This document shows positions 4,492-19,397 of a DNA stretch of 22,100 nucleotides, in pieces (the stretch's first letter is position 1; each line of letters opens with the position of its first letter). The stretch lies in the IMG/VR virus record IMGVR_UViG_3300027741_000300, positions 1-22,100 of that record; one strand, 5' to 3'. The position numbers and the translations under genes are program-made. Under the pieces are notes generated by a model that was given only the letters and a program-made list of their open reading frames with translations, was not told the DNA's origin and made no database searches. Source of the stretch: a virus.

Positions 4492-5583
4492 TTAGCCGCC
4501 GCTGTTGTTTGCGGCGTCAGCAGCAGCCCGAGCCTCAAGCTCCGAGCCGTACTCAGTCGAATTGTACGCCCAGTGGGCGTTGTGACTACCAGAGCCATCG
4601 TACACATTCACGCCGGTGTTTGCCGCGAGCCATGCGGGAAATTCCGCGTCGCCTTGAGCTGCCCGAGCTTCAGCCCGCGACGTATATTCCGTCTGGTTGT
4701 ACGCCCACTGGCCGTTGTAACTTCCAGTTCCGGATACATATTGATTAAGCCCGACGTTGTTCGCAAGCCACGATGGGTATTCTAAATCTGCTTTAGCTGC
4801 GGTTGCGGATAGGTAATCCGCATAAAAAACGGTATTATACGCCCATCTATCTCTAAACACGTTCAGCCCCACATTAGTTGCAACCCACGCTTGAAACGGA
4901 GCGTCAGCGTAAGCGGCGCGTGCAGCAGATTCTGAATTGTACTCCGTCGAGTTGTACGCCCACTGACCGTTGTGAGAACCATTGCTATGATACTGACTTA
5001 CGCCAATAAGACCGGCAAGCCATGTCTGGTACGCGGCTTCTTCTTCCGCAGCAGCTTGTTGCGCAGGTGTGCGACCCTCGTGCGCGTCCTTGTACGCTTG
5101 CAAATCGGCAGCGTCCGCAGCGTCCTGAGCTTCTTTAGCAGCTTGTTGCGCAGGTGTGCGACCCTCGTGCGCGTCCTTGTACGCTTGCAAATCGGCAGCG
5201 TCCGCAGCGTCCTGAGCTTCTTTAGCAGCTTGTTGCGCAGGTGTGCGACCCTCGTGCGCGTCTTTGTACGCTTGCAAATCGGCAGCGGCATCGGTGACCG
5301 TACCCGAGACGGTGCCGCTGTTGGTGGCCGTGCCGCTGAATGTCGCGTCTCCGGTGACACTGCCCGCATTGCTGGCCGTTCCGCTAAATGTGGCGTTGCC
5401 GGTGATCGTGCCGTTGGCGCGGTTCACAGCGGAATCTTGAAAGGTTGCGGCGCCAACAATCGAACCGCTGTTGGCGGACGTGTCCGAAACGGTAACGCCG
5501 TTTGCGGCAATGATGGTGCCAAAGTTTTCAGCGCCATTGACCAAACTAACCGTGTCTGCTGTAAGAGAAATTGAAGGATTCAT
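4492..5583 (-). CDS. Repeat-rich fibre/adhesin (beta-solenoid, helical repeats, four WAYN modules)
   Basis: The product is 363 residues from ATG 5583. It has three architectures in series. Residues about 20-96 are short glycine-rich repeats (GTITGNATFSGTASNAG), likely a beta-solenoid. Residues 101-180 hold 2.7 near-identical 29-residue alanine-rich helical units (DLQAYKDAHEGRTPAQQAA). Residues 186-353 contain four related modules of about 40 residues built on WLA-N-GVN-Y, NGQWAYN-TEY and EARAA-DA-F. Such composite repeats are typical of elongated surface proteins that bind receptors. The gene has its own space after a strong terminator (5595-5622), so it may be expressed separately from the main tail genes. 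No chaperone or peptidase domain is seen. Receptor binding is inferred. Confidence 0.65.
   Translation of the reverse strand: MNPSISLTADTVSLVNGAENFGTIIAANGVTVSDTSANSGSIVGAATFQDSAVNRANGTITGNATFSGTASNAGSVTGDATFSGTATNSGTVSGTVTDAAADLQAYKDAHEGRTPAQQAAKEAQDAADAADLQAYKDAHEGRTPAQQAAKEAQDAADAADLQAYKDAHEGRTPAQQAAAEEEAAYQTWLAGLIGVSQYHSNGSHNGQWAYNSTEYNSESAARAAYADAPFQAWVATNVGLNVFRDRWAYNTVFYADYLSATAAKADLEYPSWLANNVGLNQYVSGTGSYNGQWAYNQTEYTSRAEARAAQGDAEFPAWLAANTGVNVYDGSGSHNAHWAYNSTEYGSELEARAAADAANNSGG
5054..5287. repeat. 87-bp tandem repeat, 2.7 copies, inside the fibre gene
   Basis: Units start at 5054, 5141 and 5228. The first two are identical by eye. The third stops after about 60 bp and differs at one position (gtctttg versus gtccttg). 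The unit keeps the reading frame (29 codons) and encodes an alanine-rich helical segment. Near identity at the DNA level points to recent duplication or ongoing recombination. Confidence 0.95.
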
Positions 5584-5594
5584 GTTAAAAACGC

Positions 5595-5622
5595 GGGCGG
5601 GTCGCAAATGTTGCGCCCGCCC
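5595..5622 (-). terminator. Rho-independent terminator between fibre genes
   Basis: A GC-rich inverted repeat: GGGCGGG-T-CGCAA / TTGCG-CCCGCCC with an ATG loop and one bulged base, 12 pairs in all. On the leftward transcript it is followed by GCGTTTTTAAC. It lies between the stop of the fibre extension frame (5635) and the start of the repeat-rich fibre (5583). Confidence 0.8.
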
Positions 5623-5634
5623 TTTGGTTAATAA

Positions 5635-5937
5635 TTAGTGATTGTATTGCACACCGTTTAGCGTTACCGAACCGCTTCCCGTGATGGCGCACGCCACGTT
5701 TGCCAACGCTGAACTGGAAAGCGTCAACGAATAAGAACCGGTTGCGATGCTGAGCGGCTCGGTCCACACGTCGATGTTGGCAACGCAGTTTGCGAGCAAG
5801 GTTACCGCATCGGTGTTGTTGGGCAACCGCGTGGCCGGAGTCACGCCGTCAGCTCCAACCCAGTTCTGAATTGTACCCCATTGCGAGTTGAATGAGGCGA
5901 CGAATTTGGCCGGGGCTATCGTCGAGGGCCCGACTAA
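5635..5937 (-). CDS. Frameshift extension of the tail fibre (-1 frame C-terminal domain)
   Basis: In the -1 frame directly after the heptamer at 5937-5943 the sequence is open for 100 codons, beginning LVGPSTIAPAKF and ending in LNGVQYNH. The first part (FVASFNSQWGTIQNW) and the alternating beta-rich rest (SIATGSYSLTLSSSALANV) read like a fibre tip or carbohydrate-binding head. The first in-frame start-like codon is GTG at 5844, which would lose the first 31 residues and has no clear ribosome binding site. The simplest reading is a domain fused to the fibre by ribosomal slippage, giving a 461-residue long form. A pseudogenised fibre, or a sequencing error in the five-T run, would look the same. 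Confidence 0.6.
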   Translation of the reverse strand, partial: LVGPSTIAPAKFVASFNSQWGTIQNWVGADGVTPATRLPNNTDAVTLLANCVANIDVWTEPLSIATGSYSLTLSSSALANVACAITGSGSVTLNGVQYNH

Positions 5938-7019
5938 AAACCCTGGAACGTGCCGCCGCGAATTGTGGATTTGCTAGTAAGCAACATGCCCGGATCCGTT
6001 GGCAACGTCGCGGCGTTGCTTCCAAACGTAACCGAACCGATAATTGTGCCACCCGTGATTGACACGTTGCTGGCGTCCTGGCGTGACATTGAGGCCAGCG
6101 CGCCGGTTGCGCCAGAAATTGCGCTGTCAACTTCGCCTTTGGAATAGACTTCCAAATTGGTCCGCGCCGTCGATTTGTCGCTGAGGTCGGCAAGGTTTTG
6201 GTTTTTTGCCAAACGACCATTTGCGTTGTCGTTTGCAGAATCTGCGGCTGTCTGCGCAGCGTCAGCCGCGTCTTTGGCAACTTTTACAGCCGCATTTGTT
6301 TCGGATTTGGAGTACACGTCCAAATTGGTACGAGCGGCAGACGGGTCAGAGAGATCAGAAAAGTTTGAGGACTTCTTAAGGGAAGCATCAGCACCAGCCT
6401 GCGCGGTAACAATTGCGCTTTCAGCCGTAGTCAAACGACTGTCGAGGTTCTGACCTTCAAGCGTTGTTACGCGATTGCTAACATTTGAAATGCTCGTCGT
6501 AAGAGCAGAAACCGCACTGTCTTCATTTGCTAGCGCATCCTGAAGCTTTTTCAACGTCGCATAAGCTTCCGCCGCGCCACCGATCAAGTCGGTCAACTTT
6601 TGGTCGGTGTAACCCTGCGCTTCAGTTTTTGCAGTCGAAATTGCCGTGTCAGTCTGCGCCGTTGAGTAAACACCCAACGCCGTGCGCGCGGCCAAAATGT
6701 CAGAGAGGTCCGACAGGTTAGCCGACTTCTTAAGGGAAGCATCAGCACCAGCCTGCGCGTTGGAAGCCGCCGTGGTCAGCGCGTCAAGCGCGGTCTGAAG
6801 GCCGGTGATGTCGCTGATTGCGTGCCCGTGAATCGCAAGGGCAAACGTTGTTGAGTCCTTAAACGATAACACGGTGCCATCGTTCTTTTTTGCAAAGAGA
6901 ACACCATCAGCCGTGTTAATGGAGATTTCGGCAATTCCCAATTCCGCCGCGGCGGGAATAATTCCAGCAACGTCACTGAATTTGAGGTAAATGCTTTGGT
7001 AGTCGGGTGCTTGGCTCAT
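5934..7019 (-). CDS. Tail fibre protein (short, 0-frame form)
   Basis: The product is 361 residues from ATG 7019. The N-terminus (SIYLKFSDVAG) and a DGVLFAKKNDGT hairpin lead to IHGHAISDITGLQTALDAL, a common fibre joint. Three related repeats follow (near residues 92, 210 and 270), based on ASLKKS-NLSDLSD--AARTNL-VYSK, alternating with alanine-rich coiled coils. This is typical of trimeric phage fibres. The chain stops at TAG 5936-5934 right after RGGTFQGF, at the slippery heptamer described separately. It lies downstream of the tail-tip genes and upstream of the second fibre gene, and probably forms a host-binding appendage. Confidence 0.8.
   Translation of the reverse strand: MSQAPDYQSIYLKFSDVAGIIPAAAELGIAEISINTADGVLFAKKNDGTVLSFKDSTTFALAIHGHAISDITGLQTALDALTTAASNAQAGADASLKKSANLSDLSDILAARTALGVYSTAQTDTAISTAKTEAQGYTDQKLTDLIGGAAEAYATLKKLQDALANEDSAVSALTTSISNVSNRVTTLEGQNLDSRLTTAESAIVTAQAGADASLKKSSNFSDLSDPSAARTNLDVYSKSETNAAVKVAKDAADAAQTAADSANDNANGRLAKNQNLADLSDKSTARTNLEVYSKGEVDSAISGATGALASMSRQDASNVSITGGTIIGSVTFGSNAATLPTDPGMLLTSKSTIRGGTFQGF
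5937..5943 (-). promoter_or_regulatory. Candidate -1 frameshift heptamer G GGT TTT followed by TAG
   Basis: On the minus strand the fibre 0-frame codons are CAG GGT TTT TAG. The heptamer G GGT TTT fits X XXY YYZ and allows both tRNAs to re-pair at -1 (GGG, TTT), after which TTA GTC GGG opens the 100-codon extension. A weak GGGC/GCCC stem with an 11-nt loop could form from 5931, 5 nt downstream. Function is inferred. Confidence 0.55.
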
Positions 7020-7041: not shown

Positions 7042-7290
7042 TTAACCGTGAAAAATGCCGCCGCGAATGGGTTGCGTGTGCAAATCTGAAATGTCGTCGG
7101 AAATGTGGTGATGAGGTTCCGGAGGAAAGGTCGCTGGCTTGTTTTGAATGGCGTCCCATGTCAAAGACGTAATTCCGCTGCCAGTGCCGATTTCTACGGT
7201 GACTTCATTAGGAGACCGACCGTCAACCGTGACGCTTGTAGCTCCTTGGCCATCTACCGAGACCGTGACGATGGGCGCGACGTCGATCAT
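7042..7290 (-). CDS. Small fibre/baseplate-associated protein
   Basis: The product is 82 residues from ATG 7290, in ATGA overlap with the gene before it; longer upstream starts in this frame lie inside that gene. The N-terminal half is beta-rich (PIVTVSVDGQGATSVTVDG). The second half has LTWDAIQNKP and PPEPHHHISDDISDLHTQ, the WDxIxNKP and histidine motif seen before fibre repeats in many phages. It ends in RGGIFHG, close to the RGGTFQGF end of the short fibre form. It may connect the fibre to the tail tip. Confidence 0.6.
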   Translation of the reverse strand: MIDVAPIVTVSVDGQGATSVTVDGRSPNEVTVEIGTGSGITSLTWDAIQNKPATFPPEPHHHISDDISDLHTQPIRGGIFHG

Positions 7291-7874: not shown

Positions 7875-9199
7875 GTGACGTTGTAGGCGACGTTCACCGA
7901 CCAATTTGCGTTGTTGTAATCGCGCCACATGCCGCTTTTGTTGACCGCAAACGAAAAACCCGTGGCCGATTGAGTCAATCTTGCGGGCAACCCATACTGT
8001 TTTTCAAAATCAGTTCCGGTGGGTTCAAACCGAATATCTACCACCGACGTTACAGGCCGCAAAAACCACCGCACCGGAAACCCAGCTTTTTCAAACCGCA
8101 ATTCCTTGAGAGTTTTTCGAATAGTCCCAAAATAAGGAGCACCAAACGGCGCTTTGTAAAACTCGGTGTAGGGAGGACCTTGAACAATGGTTGAAATTGG
8201 CGCGCCATATTTGTCGATGCGAATTTCTACTTCGTTGAGTTTTTCAATTTTTTCGGTGCCTTCCGAAACTCCGATTAGCTCAAACGGCAACGCAGCACTT
8301 TGGATCGTGTCGTCGTGACTTTCCGGATGAATTTCATTTTCAAGCCCATCAACCCATGTAACGCCAGGGTCAAAAAATTCTTTTGAATGAATAGTTAGAG
8401 GTGGGTTTTGGTCGTCATTGACCAGTTCACCATTTGCCCAGACAAATTGATTACCAGACAAATCCACTTTACGGGACCACAAATCACCAAGCCACGCGTC
8501 AAAGTCTTCTTTGGCGTCAAAAAATGTCGATGCCCGTTCGGTGTTTTCTGGAAGGGGATTAGGCGTTATGTCGTTAGGCGCACCCGGGAAAAAAATGGGC
8601 GGCGCTGTGTTGGTTAACAACAAGTTTAGCCAAGCCACAAATGCGTCGGGACTTTCAAAGATATACTCGTCGGGTTTTTGAGACGGTGGAAAAGTACCAG
8701 GAAACCACATGGAACCCGAGTTGATCAATTTGTCCAAAATTGGAACCGCTGTTGAAATCGGGTAAAACGGCACAAAGTTAATTTGACCGGCGTCATATTT
8801 TAACAGCACCTCTGCACCGGCTCCAAACTTAGGAAACGGGTAATCTGGTTGGACTTGGTAGACCGGAGCAGGAATTTGGCGAACCGCAAAACCGGCATAC
8901 GCGTCGCCTTTGACTAAAACAGGCGGTTGATTGTCCGGTGGTGGCGAACCGTCGTCTGGCGGCGTCACTACTGGCGCGGGTTGGACCACGTAGCCCGATT
9001 CTTTCTTTAGCCGATCACCTCCGCATTGTAGAGCCCGAGGCGAAAAAGCAACGTGCGGCGTTTTAGGTTTCCACGTGCCAACAATGCTTTCTTCTCGGAT
9101 GTAATAATCAAAAGCCGCGTGTTGTGACCACGTGTAATTGATGTTACAAGAAACAGTAAATTTCTTGAACCGAAGCCGATTCAAAAAACTGTTGCTCAT
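7859..9199 (-). CDS. Large tail-tip protein of unknown function
   Basis: The product is 446 residues from ATG 9199, in ATGA overlap with the gene before it. The N-terminal 60 residues are basic and beta-rich. A proline/aspartate linker follows (about 95-115: PPDDGSPPPDN). The long remainder is rich in Phe, Trp, Pro and Tyr, with acidic segments (DAKEDFDAWLGDL). The C-terminus ends with a beta-rich stretch (NVAYNVTWENS). No signal peptide, coiled coil or enzymatic motif is seen. Its place after the tape measure suggests a hub or host-contact protein, but it does not look like a lambda J or Tal protein. Confidence 0.6.
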   Translation of the reverse strand: MSNSFLNRLRFKKFTVSCNINYTWSQHAAFDYYIREESIVGTWKPKTPHVAFSPRALQCGGDRLKKESGYVVQPAPVVTPPDDGSPPPDNQPPVLVKGDAYAGFAVRQIPAPVYQVQPDYPFPKFGAGAEVLLKYDAGQINFVPFYPISTAVPILDKLINSGSMWFPGTFPPSQKPDEYIFESPDAFVAWLNLLLTNTAPPIFFPGAPNDITPNPLPENTERASTFFDAKEDFDAWLGDLWSRKVDLSGNQFVWANGELVNDDQNPPLTIHSKEFFDPGVTWVDGLENEIHPESHDDTIQSAALPFELIGVSEGTEKIEKLNEVEIRIDKYGAPISTIVQGPPYTEFYKAPFGAPYFGTIRKTLKELRFEKAGFPVRWFLRPVTSVVDIRFEPTGTDFEKQYGLPARLTQSATGFSFAVNKSGMWRDYNNANWSVNVAYNVTWENS

Positions 9200-10382: not shown

Positions 10383-12113
10383 TTAATTTGGGAACACTCC
10401 GCCGCGTTTGTCGGAAATCATTTTTAAGAGTAAATTTGTTTGAGCGATGCGCTCGTTGGCTTGGCGTTGAGCCACGAGTTGATCGCGGGCTATTTTGCCC
10501 AGGTCAAACATGTCGACGCCGTTTTCCCGCGTAGATGCGCCAATTCGCGCAAACGATGAAAAGACGTTGGGAAGCTTGTTAAATTTTGCGGCTTCAGGTT
10601 CTGGACTTTGTAAATTGCCAGCGCCTAAACCGGTTGCCGTAGGGTTGTTTTTTACGGTTTGATTCAACAACGTGTTGTACCGACCAATTGCGCTATCAAT
10701 TAGCGTTTGAAGATTTGCAAAATCTTGATTTGGCAATTGCGGCCCAATTGGTCCTTCTTTTGCGGTTTTGTAAGCTGTGCCAATTTCAGAAAACAACGCC
10801 TTGATGTCATCCATGCTTTTGACAAAAACAGTGTTGTTAAACTCAATTTGTCCTTTGCCAACTTGAGCTCTTCCGGCTTGTTCAGTTAACAATCCGGTGC
10901 GATTCAGTTGAGAAACCTCTTCATCACTTACCATTTGGCGACTGATAAATGAATTGGCTCGAAGCGATGCCAAGACGGAAGCAATGCCTTGTTGAATTTG
11001 TCCGACAAAGATTTTGCCAACTCCAACAAATGCGTCGCGAAACGCCGCAAAGAATGAATTCAAATCGATGGCTTTTACTGCTACCGATAACGCAGATTGC
11101 AACCCGTATGCTATGGCAACGATTTTGTCGCTAAGTTCTTTTGCAAAACCTAAAGCCGCACTTTTCAAAGCCGTGCCAAATTCACCGCTTTTGACCAACT
11201 CGGCCAAAACGCCAAACGCGGCGCCAATGCGCAACCCCACTGAAGCAAGGTCGAGTTGCAGTAAATCTTCAACAATCTTCACCGCTGGAGTGAGGGCGGG
11301 ATGTATTTTTTCAAAGCCGCGAATGACATCCAAAAGGCCTTTTTTGGGCGCATCAATGATGCTTAAGATCTCCGGAGCAATTCCCGCCGCGATGCCGGTA
11401 AACAGTCCTTGAAGCTTTAATTTTGCGGCGTTGGCAATGTCTGCCAGCGTCGAACCTGAAGCTCCAAGTACAAGCGCGATGCGAGCAAACATTCCGGCGG
11501 CGGCCTGCATCATGTCCGCTTGCTTTCCCAACGCTTGAGCCGCTCCCGACATGGTGGTTGGGTTCATGGCAAAAACCATGCGTTGTCCATTTTCCCCCAT
11601 GAGCGCCAACGCAGACGCGGCTTGATCAGCGGGCGTTTTGATTTGGCCCACAGCGCGCGCAATTGTTTCAAGACGTTGTCCGGTGTTGAGGTTTTGCAGG
11701 CTTTGAAGGGTAACACCTGCATCAGACAACGCTTTGGTGGCGGCAGGCGTGTTTTTTGCGGCGTCCGATAACACCGCGTTCATTTTCTTTGTGGCATCAA
11801 CCAGCCCGTCGGAAGATCCGCCAACCATGCGGAAAGCTTCTTGCATCTGCATGAGCTGTGCCACCGTCAAGCCCGTTGATAAGCTGGCGGCCTGTAAATT
11901 GGCTCCCATGTCAATTACGCCTTTGATTGCGGCGGCGCTCGCCACTGCGGCGCCTGTCAATGCCGCTCCGATCGCTACTGTTGCTTGAGCAAAACGGGAA
12001 GGACCTTCCGAGTTAGCGGCCTGCTCCTGAAACTGCTTCACGGCGTTTTGCGCCATGGCAATCCCGGCTAAAAACCGTCCTGCATCGAGCGCTAGTTCTG
12101 CGACTGCTGCCAT
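10383..12113 (-). CDS. Tape measure protein
   Basis: The product is 576 residues, with start and previous stop sharing TAATG. The sequence is alanine-rich and helical, with a hydrophobic span at about 43-66 (ATVAIGAALTGAAVASAAA) and further hydrophobic helices near 200-255. Repeated motifs such as GLTVAQLMQMQEAFRMVG, DAAKNTPAATKALSDAGV and LMGENGQRM are standard in siphovirus tape measures. It sets tail length and is threaded through the tube. At roughly 1.5 angstrom per residue, a tail of about 85-90 nm would be expected. It follows the GT chaperone as usual, with one unknown gene between. Confidence 0.88.
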   Translation of the reverse strand: MAAVAELALDAGRFLAGIAMAQNAVKQFQEQAANSEGPSRFAQATVAIGAALTGAAVASAAAIKGVIDMGANLQAASLSTGLTVAQLMQMQEAFRMVGGSSDGLVDATKKMNAVLSDAAKNTPAATKALSDAGVTLQSLQNLNTGQRLETIARAVGQIKTPADQAASALALMGENGQRMVFAMNPTTMSGAAQALGKQADMMQAAAGMFARIALVLGASGSTLADIANAAKLKLQGLFTGIAAGIAPEILSIIDAPKKGLLDVIRGFEKIHPALTPAVKIVEDLLQLDLASVGLRIGAAFGVLAELVKSGEFGTALKSAALGFAKELSDKIVAIAYGLQSALSVAVKAIDLNSFFAAFRDAFVGVGKIFVGQIQQGIASVLASLRANSFISRQMVSDEEVSQLNRTGLLTEQAGRAQVGKGQIEFNNTVFVKSMDDIKALFSEIGTAYKTAKEGPIGPQLPNQDFANLQTLIDSAIGRYNTLLNQTVKNNPTATGLGAGNLQSPEPEAAKFNKLPNVFSSFARIGASTRENGVDMFDLGKIARDQLVAQRQANERIAQTNLLLKMISDKRGGVFPN

Positions 12114-12790
12114 TATTTTCCAAATGCCTCCTGTAACTGGGTTTCACCGCGCAATTTTGCTGCGGCCTCTAAACGAGAGATTTGACGTTTGGCGGCGTAA
12201 TCAAGCCGCCGTTGCATGTCGGTGACTTGGTTTGCAAATTTTGCGTTGTTGGTAGCCCTTACACCAAAACGCGATTCGGTTTTAGTAACTTGAACCGAAC
12301 CGTCTGTGGTTTTGTTTTGAGCCCAGTTAGGCGCTGAAACGCCGAATTTTTTGGAGGCCGCGTTCCAGCCCGATTGCAAAGCGCCAACGCGAGAATGCAA
12401 AAACGTTTCAACACCTTTGAACGCGTCGGTTGTTACCGTTAATTTTGGGCCGCCTGCAAATCTGCCGCGCGAATTGCGTTTGCCTTGCAGCCAGGACAAC
12501 GCTTTTTCTGCGGTAGCGGCTCTGCCTCCGATTGTTTGCGTAACCACTCGAAAAGCTTTTCGAAGGTCAACTGTGATACTGGTTTTTCCTCGCTGGTAAG
12601 ACACACTTAACAACGTGCCGCCTCCGGCTGGCGGCGTTACGTTGCGAACGTCGCGCAGGTAATCCCGAAATGACAACGCTACGGCACCAGGCAACCCGAC
12701 GCCGTCTTCAGCAAGGCCGATTGCAACGCGTTTAGCGGTGTTTGCCGCCCATTGCGCCTGAACTTGGCTGATGTCAAATTTCATCTCCAT
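12113..12790 (-). CDS. Tail assembly/minor tail protein of unknown function
   Basis: The product is 225 residues if started at ATG 12790; ATG 12784 (MKFDIS) is equally possible, and a longer form from 12820 lies wholly within the GT frame. The protein is basic and largely helical (ISQVQAQWAANTAKRVAIG, QRRLDYAAKRQ), with a middle basic stretch (GKRNSRGRF). It overlaps the end of the GT frame and the tape measure start, so all are translated together. Its position between chaperone and tape measure suggests tail assembly; no family is recognised. Confidence 0.6.
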   Translation of the reverse strand: MEMKFDISQVQAQWAANTAKRVAIGLAEDGVGLPGAVALSFRDYLRDVRNVTPPAGGGTLLSVSYQRGKTSITVDLRKAFRVVTQTIGGRAATAEKALSWLQGKRNSRGRFAGGPKLTVTTDAFKGVETFLHSRVGALQSGWNAASKKFGVSAPNWAQNKTTDGSVQVTKTESRFGVRATNNAKFANQVTDMQRRLDYAAKRQISRLEAAAKLRGETQLQEAFGK

Positions 12791-13010
12791 CGCAATTAAC
12801 GATTTGGTCAACTGCCGCAATCAACTCGTTGAGTTGAGCCGACACGGATGGGCCAGGCGCAACCGTCCAAGCGCCGCGCATCCATTGGATGGCGTGCCAA
12901 TATTGAAGGGCTCTTGATAGCGGCAGGTGCCATAAAATGAACTCCTCAGACCAACCAAACTCTTTTGCTAAGGAAGCCAGCAAGACCACCGGCCAAGCTG
13001 GCGCTACGAT
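12774..13010 (-). CDS. T domain of the GT tail assembly chaperone (reached by -1 frameshift)
   Basis: In the -1 frame after the heptamer at 13010-13016 the sequence runs IVAPAWPVVLLASLAKEFGW on to a stop at 12774, giving 78 residues. GWSEEFILWHLPLSRALQY is a motif style common in the C-terminal part of long tail chaperones. A GTG at 12989 could be called as a separate start, but the frame is open and in register with the slip site, so the natural product is a 215-residue GT fusion. GT proteins bind the tape measure and recruit tube subunits. Confidence 0.75.
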   Translation of the reverse strand: MVAPAWPVVLLASLAKEFGWSEEFILWHLPLSRALQYWHAIQWMRGAWTVAPGPSVSAQLNELIAAVDQIVNCDGDEI

Positions 13011-13016
13011 TTTCCC
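12976..13016 (-). promoter_or_regulatory. -1 programmed frameshift signal: G GGA AAA plus stem-loop
   Basis: The G-frame codons are CCG GGA AAA TCG TAG. The heptamer G GGA AAA (13016-13010) is the lambda-type slip sequence. Seven bases further on, GCCAGC (13002-12997) pairs perfectly with GCTGGC (12981-12976) around a 15-nt loop. Heptamer, spacing, stem and the in-frame stop just after the slip all fit programmed -1 frameshifting. Confidence 0.8.
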
Positions 13017-13420
13017 GGCGCGCCCTCCTCGGGAGATCCGGGACGGGGAACAATTTCAATTTGCGCCGCTGAAATGCGTTTGGAGATTTTGAATAACTGC
13101 TCGGTGAGTTGAGCAATGACGGACGGATGAAGTTGCGCTTCAAAATCTGCGGCCAAATCCAAAGCGGATCCGTCATCGAGCGCGCGTCGCACTAAAGAAA
13201 CGGGTTCCGATTGTGCCCATGCAAACGCAACTAACTGACGAGAAATTTCGTCTTCGGAAATTGGATCGGCTTTTGCAGCCTCTTCGGGCGAACGCAAAAA
13301 GATGCTCAACCCTAATTTGCGACACGCGCGCCCAGTCATAAGCGACATTGGACGCAACGTGATGTTTTCAATGATTGTGTCGCCTTCAAAGAAAGCGTCA
13401 TCAAGAGTGGTCGATTCCAT
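13004..13420 (-). CDS. Tail assembly chaperone G
   Basis: The product is 138 residues from ATG 13420. The frame is open further upstream, but that stretch overlaps sensible coding of the previous gene and reads as an off-frame Arg/Pro/Ser-rich translation. The body ITLRPMSLMTGRACRKLGLS, EISRQLVAFAWAQSEPVSLV and HPSVIAQLTEQLFKISKRI is the all-helical pattern expected of lambda-G-like chaperones. It ends in an acidic/proline tail at the slip site. It is made in excess over GT, and both are usually absent from mature virions. It overlaps the preceding gene by 85 bp. Confidence 0.75.
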   Translation of the reverse strand: MESTTLDDAFFEGDTIIENITLRPMSLMTGRACRKLGLSIFLRSPEEAAKADPISEDEISRQLVAFAWAQSEPVSLVRRALDDGSALDLAADFEAQLHPSVIAQLTEQLFKISKRISAAQIEIVPRPGSPEEGAPGKS

Positions 13421-13983
13421 AAATATCGGTTGAAATCTTCCAGCAACCGCGCTTGAACTTCCGGCGCACAGCGGTCTTTGTCCATGAGCAGGACCTTGTT
13501 GTTTTTTCGGATGCACAGCAGCGGTTTGACGCTTTTTAGCCAACCGCGGAAGTCGTAAAGCGCGTCGCGACGGGCGCGCAGTTTGGCGACTGGATGAGTG
13601 GGGTTTTGAGTTGCCCACGCTTTGCTTTGCCAAGCGTCGCGGAACTGTTGAAACCGCATCTTTACAGGCTTTTGAGCGGTGACTTTGGCGGCTGCAACTC
13701 GGGTTGCAAAGGTTTCAAACGTCAATGTTTCGCCGTTAAAAATTTCGCGCAACTGTTCCGGATCAATTACGTCGGAGCCAAAAATTGCTTCGTGCTCGGC
13801 GTTGAAGTTCCACCGCACTTGCCGTTTGGGCCCATCCGGCGTTTGTTCGACGGAATCAATGTAGTTGCACCCATCGGCAAGCTTACCTTCGCCGTCATAT
13901 AAAAATGCAAACGCCATGTCGCTGTTTTGGCTTTGCAACGGTGGCAAATCGTCAGCAATCGTAAATATACTCTTGTTCAACAT
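13336..13983 (-). CDS. Unknown protein between tail tube and chaperone genes
   Basis: The product is 215 residues from ATG 13983. It is mixed alpha/beta. A beta-rich first part (MAFAFLYDGEGKLADGC, RQVRWNF) is followed by a helical basic part with several Trp and Arg (RFQQFRDAWQSKAW, LRARRDALYDFRGWL). The last 26 or so residues are simply the off-frame reading of chaperone G. It carries the heptamer A AAA AAC (13507-13501), from which the -1 frame is open into G. No family is recognised; by position it may be a tail protein. Confidence 0.6.
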   Translation of the reverse strand: MLNKSIFTIADDLPPLQSQNSDMAFAFLYDGEGKLADGCNYIDSVEQTPDGPKRQVRWNFNAEHEAIFGSDVIDPEQLREIFNGETLTFETFATRVAAAKVTAQKPVKMRFQQFRDAWQSKAWATQNPTHPVAKLRARRDALYDFRGWLKSVKPLLCIRKNNKVLLMDKDRCAPEVQARLLEDFNRYLWNRPLLMTLSLKATQSLKTSRCVQCRL

Positions 13984-15654: not shown

Positions 15655-16554
15655 CTAGGCGCTCGTGACGCGAACGGCAAAAGGCGAACCCTTTGCAGCG
15701 CCCCACAGCGCAGCCATGGAGAGATAGAAGTTACCTTCGGTTGGTACGTACCAGCGGCGATACTGAACCGTCATGTTCAGCCCAGGGATCAGCATGTCGT
15801 AGACCTCGACGCCAGCTTGAGCGGCTCCGGTGGCATCGATGCGGCGGCTACCAACAACAATCGCGGAATTGTGCAGGGCAACAGCACCAAGGTTTTCCGT
15901 GTTGTCTGGGAAATAGTTGACTTCATAGATGTCAAACCCAGCAACGCGAGGAACGCGGCCTTCGGCTTTTTCGGCCGTGATGCCGGGGAATTCCGCGCTG
16001 TTAAGCGACTTTAGCAAACTAGCGTAATAATCGGAATTCGCCAACATGGCGCGGTTGCTGATCGGAGCGCGCAAAGGTTCCTTGTTCAAGGTAGCGCGCA
16101 AATCAATAACGTCCGAGCGGTCAAAATTGCCGCTGGTCGAAACATACGACGTCGAAAAATTTGCAGCCGTAAGCAACGCGTGAATTCGGCCATAAATCTT
16201 TTTACCCAGGACTTCAAAACCCGGATTGGTAAAGAGCGCGGGCAGATCAACAGCCGAACGCGAACGCTCAACGTCCGAAAACGCTTTGACGTATCGAGGA
16301 AAGCGGTTGAAGGGCACAGTGACGGCAACCGTGGTGCCAGCAGTTGCCGCATACATGGCAGAGCTGGGCGACGTGGAATCGTCGGCGTCGGTGTCGGGAA
16401 TGACATAACGCGACGTAATGGATTCCGCGTTTTGACTGACTTCAGGAGAGAAGTCGGTCGTGAACGCGGACATTGGAGCAAGAAGGTTCTGCCAGTAAGG
16501 CAGGCTTTCTTGAGCGATTTCTGCGAGGTTTACGCCTGCAAGTGTGTTGGCCAT
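15655..16554 (-). CDS. Major capsid protein
   Basis: The product is 299 residues from ATG 16554. Residues 1-60 (MANTLAGVNLAEIAQESLPY) resemble the N-arm region of HK97-fold capsid proteins of the P22/E-like lineages. The body has NRFPRYVKAFSDVERSRSAV, RAMLANSDYYASLLKSLNSA, AGFDIYEVNYFPDN and ending strands MTVQYRRWYVP. It follows the scaffold-like gene and precedes a strong terminator and the connector genes, the usual place. The fold assignment rests on length, composition and order. The upstream leader TTCAAAAAAATAGACT has no Shine-Dalgarno sequence. Confidence 0.82.
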   Translation of the reverse strand: MANTLAGVNLAEIAQESLPYWQNLLAPMSAFTTDFSPEVSQNAESITSRYVIPDTDADDSTSPSSAMYAATAGTTVAVTVPFNRFPRYVKAFSDVERSRSAVDLPALFTNPGFEVLGKKIYGRIHALLTAANFSTSYVSTSGNFDRSDVIDLRATLNKEPLRAPISNRAMLANSDYYASLLKSLNSAEFPGITAEKAEGRVPRVAGFDIYEVNYFPDNTENLGAVALHNSAIVVGSRRIDATGAAQAGVEVYDMLIPGLNMTVQYRRWYVPTEGNFYLSMAALWGAAKGSPFAVRVTSA

Positions 16555-17014: not shown

Positions 17015-17851
17015 TCAACTGTTCACCATTTGCAGCAACTGAGCGTAAGCTTGGTTTTCCGTTGTGACCTCATCGATGAGGTTGGCTTGCAAACCGTCGG
17101 GCATCGCAAAAAAGCATTGCCCGCGCATTGTTTCCGGCGCGACCGCTCGGTTGCGAAGCACGACGGAACGGAACGTGTTGAACGCCGTTTGAACGTACGC
17201 CTGCATTGAGTCGCGTTGAGCTGGCGTCAAGGAAGGCCCGTGGCCGGCGGCTTTCAGGTCGCCTTCCGTGTTGGTAATGGGTTGAAACTCCATGCCGGCC
17301 GCAGACCAGGCGCGCGAAGTGTCCACCCATGGAACCAAAGTTCCGATTGATCCGACCGACGCGGACGAACTGGCCATTATTTTGTCGCAGTTCACTCCCA
17401 GCATGTACGCCGCCGAGTGCATTTCGTCATCAGTCCAAGCCACAGAAGGCACTGGGAGATTAAAAATTAGGTCGGCAATTTCACCGCAACCCGTGACAGA
17501 TCCGCCCGGTGAATCGAATTCAAACCACACACCGGCACACCCGTTTTCAATGACGTCGTTGAGTTCTTTTTCAAGGTCGTCGTAGGACGTGTTTCCGCAC
17601 GATTTGACAATTGAAGAAAGCCCCTTTCCTAGGACGCCGCAAACGTGAATGTGCGCAATGCCAGCGCCGTCAATGAACATCGGGCGACGCGGATTCACAA
17701 ACTCATCTAAATCCATTCCGCTGTCTTCCGCTTTGACGCCGTACGCGGTGCCGAGTTTAGACTCTAGCAGCATTCGAACCGACGCGTGACCGGCGGGCGT
17801 GATATGCCACGGCTTAAAGTTGACCTGTTCAATCAATCGTTGGAGTCGCAT
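17015..17851 (-). CDS. Head maturation protease, S49 (SppA/ClpP-like)
   Basis: The product is 278 residues from ATG 17851. The frame is open up to 18115, but AGGA stands 5 nt before ATG 17851 and the longer part duplicates portal coding. GIAHIHVCGVLGKG starts the fold and FEFDSPGGSV forms the oxyanion loop. Ser146 in MHSAAYML is the nucleophile, and Lys200 in GDLKAAG the likely general base. SSASVGSIGTLV is also typical. It resembles the protease portion of lambda C and would cleave scaffold and head proteins. It overlaps the portal end by 23 bp. A separate scaffold gene follows instead of an internal one. Confidence 0.9.
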   Translation of the reverse strand: MRLQRLIEQVNFKPWHITPAGHASVRMLLESKLGTAYGVKAEDSGMDLDEFVNPRRPMFIDGAGIAHIHVCGVLGKGLSSIVKSCGNTSYDDLEKELNDVIENGCAGVWFEFDSPGGSVTGCGEIADLIFNLPVPSVAWTDDEMHSAAYMLGVNCDKIMASSSASVGSIGTLVPWVDTSRAWSAAGMEFQPITNTEGDLKAAGHGPSLTPAQRDSMQAYVQTAFNTFRSVVLRNRAVAPETMRGQCFFAMPDGLQANLIDEVTTENQAYAQLLQMVNS

Positions 17852-19397
17852 AATTTCCTGTCTGTTCCATTTCACTTCCGTCAGCATTTTGATTTGGGTC
17901 GCCTTGATCCGGCGGGTTGCCGTTTGGCGTGATGATTCCAAAATCTGCGATGGGAATGCCGTACTCAGTCGCAATTTGCCGTTTAAGCTGCGCTTCGTAA
18001 GCACGATCGCGGTAATGCTCCTCAATGGTCTTTCCTCGCCAATCCTGAATGTCTGCCATGTTGGCCGAACCCATTTTGTAAGCTTCGCGGGCGTTTTGAG
18101 CCGACCAGCCGTCATCCGCTGTCAACTTGGCGGCATGAGTGAAACGCCATTTCAGGAACCCGCCGATTTCGCCGGAGTACGGCGGCAGGATTCCCAGTTT
18201 GATCGCTTTTGAGATCGCGTATCCCACACGCCGACGGGCGACGGTGGTCAGCAAGCGTTGACGACGTTCAATGGCGCGGTTCACTTTGTCGATAACCACT
18301 CGGACATTTGCGCCCGAGGCATCAAATCGGTAAAAAAATTCGGGCGGCATTTGAGCCGACAGCAGCGCGTTGCGGATTAGCCATTCGACAAGGCGTTCTT
18401 GCGCTTGGCTTGGCGTGGTTGGTGTGAGCTGCTCCAGCTTTTGGCCTGAGTCGGCTTTGAAATACCGAATCATGCCGCCGACCATTTCTTCATACTGAAG
18501 CTTTGCGCGTTCTACAACGCCTGTGCCGCTGAGGTCGTCCGCACCGCCAACGCCAGGCAAACCAAGGGCGGACGCCGGATCCATGGGATTTTGAAACCCG
18601 GTGTCGTTGTATTCCATCAACCCGATTGACGCGGCAATGGCTCCAGCGGTCTTGATGTAGCCTTGAACTTGAGACAGGTCGCGCAGATCCAACAAAGCAG
18701 CCGTCCAAGACGGAAACCCGCGCACCTGATCGGCTACCTTTGTGACCCGAAGAAAGTCTACCGAGTTTGCTGGGTAGATGCGATCATCCGCGGCGGTGAT
18801 GCCGCGCACCGCGTAGCCAATGGCGCGGTTTTGGTCGTTGAGAATTATTCCATTGTAACACCGACGTCCCTTGAACGGGCCGGTTTCAACCTTGGTGTCG
18901 TCGTTGCGCAAACCGAGTTGATGCCACGCAATTTGCTGTAATTGGGGAAAACCGGATTTGGCTTCCGTGTAAAGCGTGGTTGCATCTCCATCGCGTGTCA
19001 GTTGGGTGCAATCCAGCTCGATTCCTTCAGAAAACGAACCGCCGGAAACGTACGCAATCGGCATCCACGTTTCGTTAATCCATTCCTCAGCCAGCGCGCC
19101 CCAGCTTCGATCAATACCGCAGAACCGCGCCTTCCATGGTCCGCCGACAAAGGTTGAAAACTCTTCGGTGGCCCCGTGAATTGGGCCATAATTCCAGTAA
19201 AGGCGGTTTGAGCTGGAAACAATGTTGCGCCATTCGCTTGGCGTAACCTCGACATCAATGCGCTGGTTGTGTTGCTGCCAAAAGGGCCGCACGCCGTACC
19301 AACCCGCTTGAATGAGGCGCGGATTGTTTGGGTATGTGCCGCCCGAGTTTGCTTCAACCTTGGGTTTTCGGAATGCCGATAGAAGTTTTCCGAACAT
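17829..19397 (-). CDS. Portal protein, lambda B family
   Basis: The product is 522 residues, taking ATG 19397 (MFGKLLSAFRKPK), which starts 1 bp after the upstream stop; a GTG at 19445 would add 16 residues inside the previous gene. Features of lambda-type portals are present: SSSNRLYWNYGPIHGATEEF early, the W-I-A-vSGGSFSEG block, AIGYAVRGITAADDRIYPAN, DLRDLSQVQGYIKTAGAIAA, and a late stretch LLSAQMPPEFFYRFDASGAN. Length is close to lambda gpB (533). It forms the dodecameric DNA channel and motor base. Its C-terminus is polar and probably flexible. Confidence 0.92.
   Translation of the reverse strand: MFGKLLSAFRKPKVEANSGGTYPNNPRLIQAGWYGVRPFWQQHNQRIDVEVTPSEWRNIVSSSNRLYWNYGPIHGATEEFSTFVGGPWKARFCGIDRSWGALAEEWINETWMPIAYVSGGSFSEGIELDCTQLTRDGDATTLYTEAKSGFPQLQQIAWHQLGLRNDDTKVETGPFKGRRCYNGIILNDQNRAIGYAVRGITAADDRIYPANSVDFLRVTKVADQVRGFPSWTAALLDLRDLSQVQGYIKTAGAIAASIGLMEYNDTGFQNPMDPASALGLPGVGGADDLSGTGVVERAKLQYEEMVGGMIRYFKADSGQKLEQLTPTTPSQAQERLVEWLIRNALLSAQMPPEFFYRFDASGANVRVVIDKVNRAIERRQRLLTTVARRRVGYAISKAIKLGILPPYSGEIGGFLKWRFTHAAKLTADDGWSAQNAREAYKMGSANMADIQDWRGKTIEEHYRDRAYEAQLKRQIATEYGIPIADFGIITPNGNPPDQGDPNQNADGSEMEQTGNYATPTID

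Follow-up and report, generated by a model that had tools for sequence, protein, structure and literature searches.

The 22,100 bases analyzed here (the window) make up a complete IMG/VR virus record, with an integrase, tRNA-Met, a lysin, tail and portal genes, a terminase and a capsid gene. The phage probably infects a verrucomicrobium, because its capsid protein is 48% identical to the P22-coat-like protein of Verrucomicrobia phage P8625. On the minus strand, a short tail gene is followed by a tail fiber gene, by an open -1 frame that would extend the fiber (here called the tip) and by a terminator-like hairpin (Table 1). The fiber belongs to a tail fiber family by PHROG (best match phrog_32345, E=4e-14; phrog_4465, 3.9e-12; and others), and its 361-residue part alone gives the match. 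The next fiber-like gene (4492-5583) contains direct repeats of 87 nt in three copies (5043-5303, 85-97% identical), alongside other, degenerate repeats.

The window and contig L005 both break, within positions 1-60 of each, in a seemingly identical tandem repeat (..APTGTNRHQQ..). This shared break suggests that the phage genome continues from the left end of the window into the replication genes of L005. The near-identical contigs L004-L006 (99.9%) end at window position 8817 and do not cover the fiber. Near-identical contigs come from the freshwater-type samples 3300009154 and 3300010885. The substitutions that distinguish such contigs are concentrated in the capsid gene (16276-16345) and in the gene at 17015-18115 (17630-17783).

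Table 1. Features of the fiber locus and of the genes compared with it
Feature	Position	Strand	Basis and remarks
Terminator-like hairpin and T-tract	5587..5622	-	Directly after tip stop; folding z = -4.5
-1 frame tip, 100 codons (LVGPSTIAP...GVQYNH), stop TAA 5637-5635	5635..5937	-	Translation; no family match
Alternative 69-aa ORF from GTG 5844	5635..5844	-	GGAG 8 nt upstream, duplex -5.6 kcal/mol
Tail fiber, 0-frame form, 361 aa	5934..7019	-	ORF; ends ..STIRGGTFQGF, stop
Slippery heptamer G_GGT_TTT	5937..5943	-	Phase and distance from sequence; next codon is stop TAG 5936-5934
82-aa tail protein	7042..7290	-	ORF; neighbor of fiber; ends ..QPIRGGIFHG, stop
Tape measure protein	10383..12113	-	Ends ..KRGGVFPN, stop; C_CCA_AAT abuts stop TAA; -1 reading nonsense
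G/GT-type chaperone pair	12774..13420	-	G frame 13420-13004; G_GGA_AAA 13016-13010; 78-aa -1 T extension to 12774

Anatomy of the fiber gene end

The 0-frame of the fiber gene runs from an ATG at 7019-7017 to the TAG at 5936-5934 and ends CAG GGT TTT TAG on the minus strand, exactly as an earlier note on this DNA had read it. The heptamer GGGTTTT (5943-5937) is correctly phased as X_XXY_YYZ and borders the stop directly, at a distance of 0 codons, and the T-run at the end of the gene (5940-5936) consists of five T. Equally exact was the description of a -1 frame that is open for 100 codons, with 31 codons ahead of its first start-like codon; this codon, the first ATG, GTG or TTG of the frame, is the GTG at 5844-5842. 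In the slipped reading, the fiber-tip junction peptide would be ..GGTFQGFLVGPS.. / ..GGTFQGFLVGPSTIAPAK.

The heptamer had been called textbook. It fits the pattern, but it proves little alone, because the fiber gene contains two further in-frame heptamers, A_AAA_AAG and A_AAA_AAC, with -1 frames that close after 8 and 24 codons, and because the tape measure gene also ends in a heptamer and a stop. In-frame X_XXY_YYZ heptamers occupy 38 of the 5761 codons of this phage (0.66%). Of 678 ORFs of at least 200 aa in retrieved viral loci, 4 end with a heptamer immediately ahead of the stop. Both shifted frames of the same 678 ORFs yielded 76 start-poor extensions of at least 80 codons, many of them spurious, and none of the 76 was accompanied by a heptamer. 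The joint occurrence of a heptamer and a long extension comes to roughly 1% per genome, which is unusual, although a large scan would sometimes meet it by chance. When the window was scanned for ORFs with a heptamer within their final 10 codons and a -1 frame of at least 40 codons beyond the stop, only two candidate sites were recovered, the fiber and the G/GT-type chaperone pair. The same scan of relatives returned the homologous G/GT sites, along with hits that are accounted for by spurious ORFs or by an independently started gene downstream.

A putative chaperone frameshift site in the same genome

The G/GT-type pair served as an in-genome positive control. These proteins were not recognized by PHROGs, and the pair was labeled on the basis of its architecture and position. 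The G_GGA_AAA at 13016 lies one codon ahead of a stop that ends a 138-aa gene, and AGGAGG closely precedes the heptamer. Relatives have homologous sites (L018:9544, L011:8813 and L015:9293), where the heptamer reads GGGAAAC (L018 and L011) or AAAAAAC (L015) and the extensions of 78-80 residues are homologous, with an invariant GAWT. The L015 heptamer runs straight into the stop, as at the fiber site. These sites thereby illustrate how a real site is conserved in this phage family, and they show that conspicuous stimulators are inconsistent even there.

At the fiber heptamer, pseudoknot-free folding of the downstream RNA predicted nothing stable or unusual (z of -0.9 to +0.5), and no Shine-Dalgarno-like element was found in the upstream sequence, CGGCGGCACGTTCCA. 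We took a stimulator (a Shine-Dalgarno-like element 5′ or a stem-loop or pseudoknot 3′ of the heptamer) to be common but not universal and did not treat it as defining, since the G/GT sites of the relatives are also without an obvious one. Transcriptional slippage was set aside because a T-run of five is shorter than the runs at which it is known to occur.

Homologues of the tip were not found in IMG/VR peptide scans, GTDB genomes, tblastn searches of annotated phages, plasmids or the whole records of 26 relatives, nor was any detected with a DNA pattern across the site that tolerated different T counts. The fiber had no usable homologue in the same collections, and its matches in annotated phages were short and weak. 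Relatives were also identified by alignment of the terminase; the informative ones, L011 and L018, carry unrelated fibers.

The end of the 361-residue fiber and a shared C-terminal motif

Across window ORFs of at least 50 aa, the motif RGG.F occurs three times, always 2-3 residues from the stop: in the fiber (IRGGTFQGF), in the 82-aa tail protein (IRGGIFHG) and in the tape measure protein (KRGGVFPN). Because the motif is always near the stop and is carried by three tail proteins, the 0-frame stop of the fiber looks native, and this tells against a simple truncation of recent date. The fiber and 82-aa genes have a repeat in common at their ends (25 nt, 84%; family D9), and the RGG.F ends of these two proteins are therefore not independent of each other. 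The 82-aa gene reads CAC GGT TAA at its end and has neither a heptamer nor an extension, whereas the fiber gene has both. It is possible that RGG.F is a docking tail common to the tape measure protein, the 82-aa protein and the fiber. A DNA-pattern scan of IMG/VR for RGG.F hit nothing but unrelated proteins and short frames that arose by chance. In relative L018, the counterparts of the short gene and the fiber have a common C-terminal motif, AGTY, unlike RGG.F. Four successive fiber-type proteins of this relative (L090, 2830-7273) end in AGTY, AGTY, TTYF and TTYF.

The motif bears on the strongest competing explanation, that the ancestral gene was a single frame of 461 residues with a longer T-run and that this contig has a one-base deletion, whether by mutation, as a phase-variable state or through an assembly error. 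Homopolymers are the usual sites of indels, the T-run is a homopolymer, and the two frames read smoothly into each other over it. There is also a precedent in this phage. At 13425, the window has one base fewer than the near-identical contig L006, the only 1-nt indel in ~13 kb. With the extra base, L006 has a clean stop at a gene boundary; the window is without this stop, so that the upstream gene (13983-13336) runs on, out of frame, for 29 residues over the gene that follows. Single-base indels thus separate assemblies of this phage, and the loss of a T at 5936-5940 is possible. However, the shortened fiber end has the RGG.F of two intact tail proteins, and an accidental stop would not account for this. 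The window contains 109 homopolymers of at least 5 bases and its other late genes look intact, indicating a low error rate, and it would take a coincidence for an indel to place a heptamer in the right phase. On balance, we consider the loss of a base somewhat unlikely.

Coding potential of the tip

By codon usage, the tip is only moderately coding-like. It scored 0.16 bits per codon, compared with medians of 0.29 for in-frame segments and 0.06 for open off-frame segments; its score was equalled by 25% of the open off-frame segments, and 12% of true in-frame segments scored as low. The -1 frame scored best from ~5920 to 5750. The 31 residues ahead of the GTG have a tail-protein-like composition, with a score that 3% of open off-frame segments reach; for the amino acid composition of the whole tip, 9% of these segments score as high. 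AlphaFold modeling of the tip alone gave an uninformative result (pLDDT 44). The tip had no family match in PHROG and no significant match in a PDB sequence search. Rfam gave no match. A noncoding tip would leave 351 nt ahead of the next gene, whereas most other gaps in the late region are <60 nt, a figure that allows for genes missing from the list. The hairpin behind the tip was absent from the output of a consensus terminator scan, probably because of a one-base bulge.

A coding tip could also be a separate gene that starts at GTG 5844 and encodes 69 aa, with the 31 upstream codons as a spacer. GGAG lies 8 nt ahead of the GTG, with a duplex of -5.6 kcal/mol (15.5% of random positions reach -4.5 kcal/mol or better), the resulting 90-nt gap would be tolerable, and phage P8625 has an 82-aa gene directly after a fiber gene. 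However, the small protein of P8625 does not align with the tip, and the late genes as a set mostly start with ATG and have a Shine-Dalgarno signal no higher than background. The same frame already scores as coding in the 31 codons ahead of the GTG, and the heptamer at the fiber stop is left unexplained. A separate gene is therefore improbable in our judgment. Even less credible is a relic left by a recombination that put the RGG.F end onto the fiber and cut off an old tip, now untranslated: the 25-nt repeat common to the fiber and 82-aa gene ends would fit such an event, but the tip has kept an open frame of 100 codons and a protein-like composition, and the heptamer again goes unexplained.

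A candidate programmed frameshift in a tail fiber gene

The weights given to these four explanations are judgments and were not computed. We tentatively favor, at a little short of an even chance, a -1 programmed frameshift in the fiber gene that would yield fibers of 361 and 461 residues, the latter as the minor form. Frameshifting is preferred to a recent truncation because RGG.F is carried by three tail proteins, the 82-aa gene ends without a heptamer, a noncoding tip would leave a gap of 351 nt, and a hairpin comes directly after the tip. The earlier note had proposed two fiber forms made in this way. The anatomy that it described stands, and the RGG.F end, the gap and the hairpin speak for the proposal, but neither a stimulator nor, in the collections searched, a homologue of the tip was detected.

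In the proposed mechanism, most ribosomes would stop at the TAG and release the 361-residue fiber, its RGGTFQGF tail free. The others, fewer in number, would re-pair at G_GGT_TTT (Gly-Phe) and read on through TTA GTC GGG..., adding the 100-residue tip to give the 461-residue form. Slippage, its rate and the entry of both forms into the virion are suppositions of this model, as is a role for the tip in binding the host or capping the fiber. A more speculative extension, which we regard as unlikely on present evidence, is that slippage rations an adhesive tip. The short form would expose the RGG.F docking tail, the frameshifted form would hide it behind the 100-residue tip, and the rate of slippage would set the share of tipped fiber ends.

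On mammalian ribosomes, G_GGU_UUU ranks with the heptamers most prone to shifting (PMC5009743), and a conserved GTTTTT has been proposed as a -1 site in tail chaperones (PMC12846349). C-terminal domains are added to phage capsid and tail-tube proteins by -1 or +1 frameshifts (PMC5009743, PMC6316719). SPP1 gp17.1/gp17.1* resembles the fiber in that a tail structural gene is frameshifted at its 3′ end past the stop, which adds 87 residues and gives two virion forms (PMC6316719). That shift has been demonstrated experimentally, is a +1 event at CCC_UAA and adds an Fn3 domain to a tail-tube protein, whereas the site described here is a candidate -1 site in a fiber gene. In gene 10 of T7 and T3 (10A/10B), a -1 slip near the 3′ end likewise produces a minor extended structural protein, in this case a capsid protein, and the first half of the T7 heptamer also has G_GU (PMC5009743). 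A terminator sequence >200 nt downstream is involved in T7 (PMC5009743); here, a predicted hairpin lies ~310 nt downstream. The Cps and Tsh structural proteins of Listeria phages A118, A500 and PSA also receive C-terminal extensions, and the tsh shift codon abuts the stop (PMC5009743). Unlike the fiber site, however, tsh shifts +1 on a proline codon, the capsid gene shifts -1 or +1, and neither encodes a fiber (PMC5009743). The lambda-type G/GT tail chaperone, of which this phage has an example at 13016, shares with the proposed fiber site a -1 slip at X_XXY_YYZ with a stop close behind. It is a chaperone encoded upstream of the tape measure and is conserved across relatives, in contrast with the fiber site, for which no tip homologue was found.

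A search of the openly accessible literature found no frameshift-extended tail fiber. The known cases are capsid, tail-tube and tail-chaperone proteins of phages, and use in a fiber would be new. If the proposal is correct, the receptor-facing end of the fiber exists in a fixed mixed ratio, and host range or fiber assembly could depend on ribosome slippage. The presence of one C-terminal motif on three tail proteins is a separate lead on how tail parts find each other.
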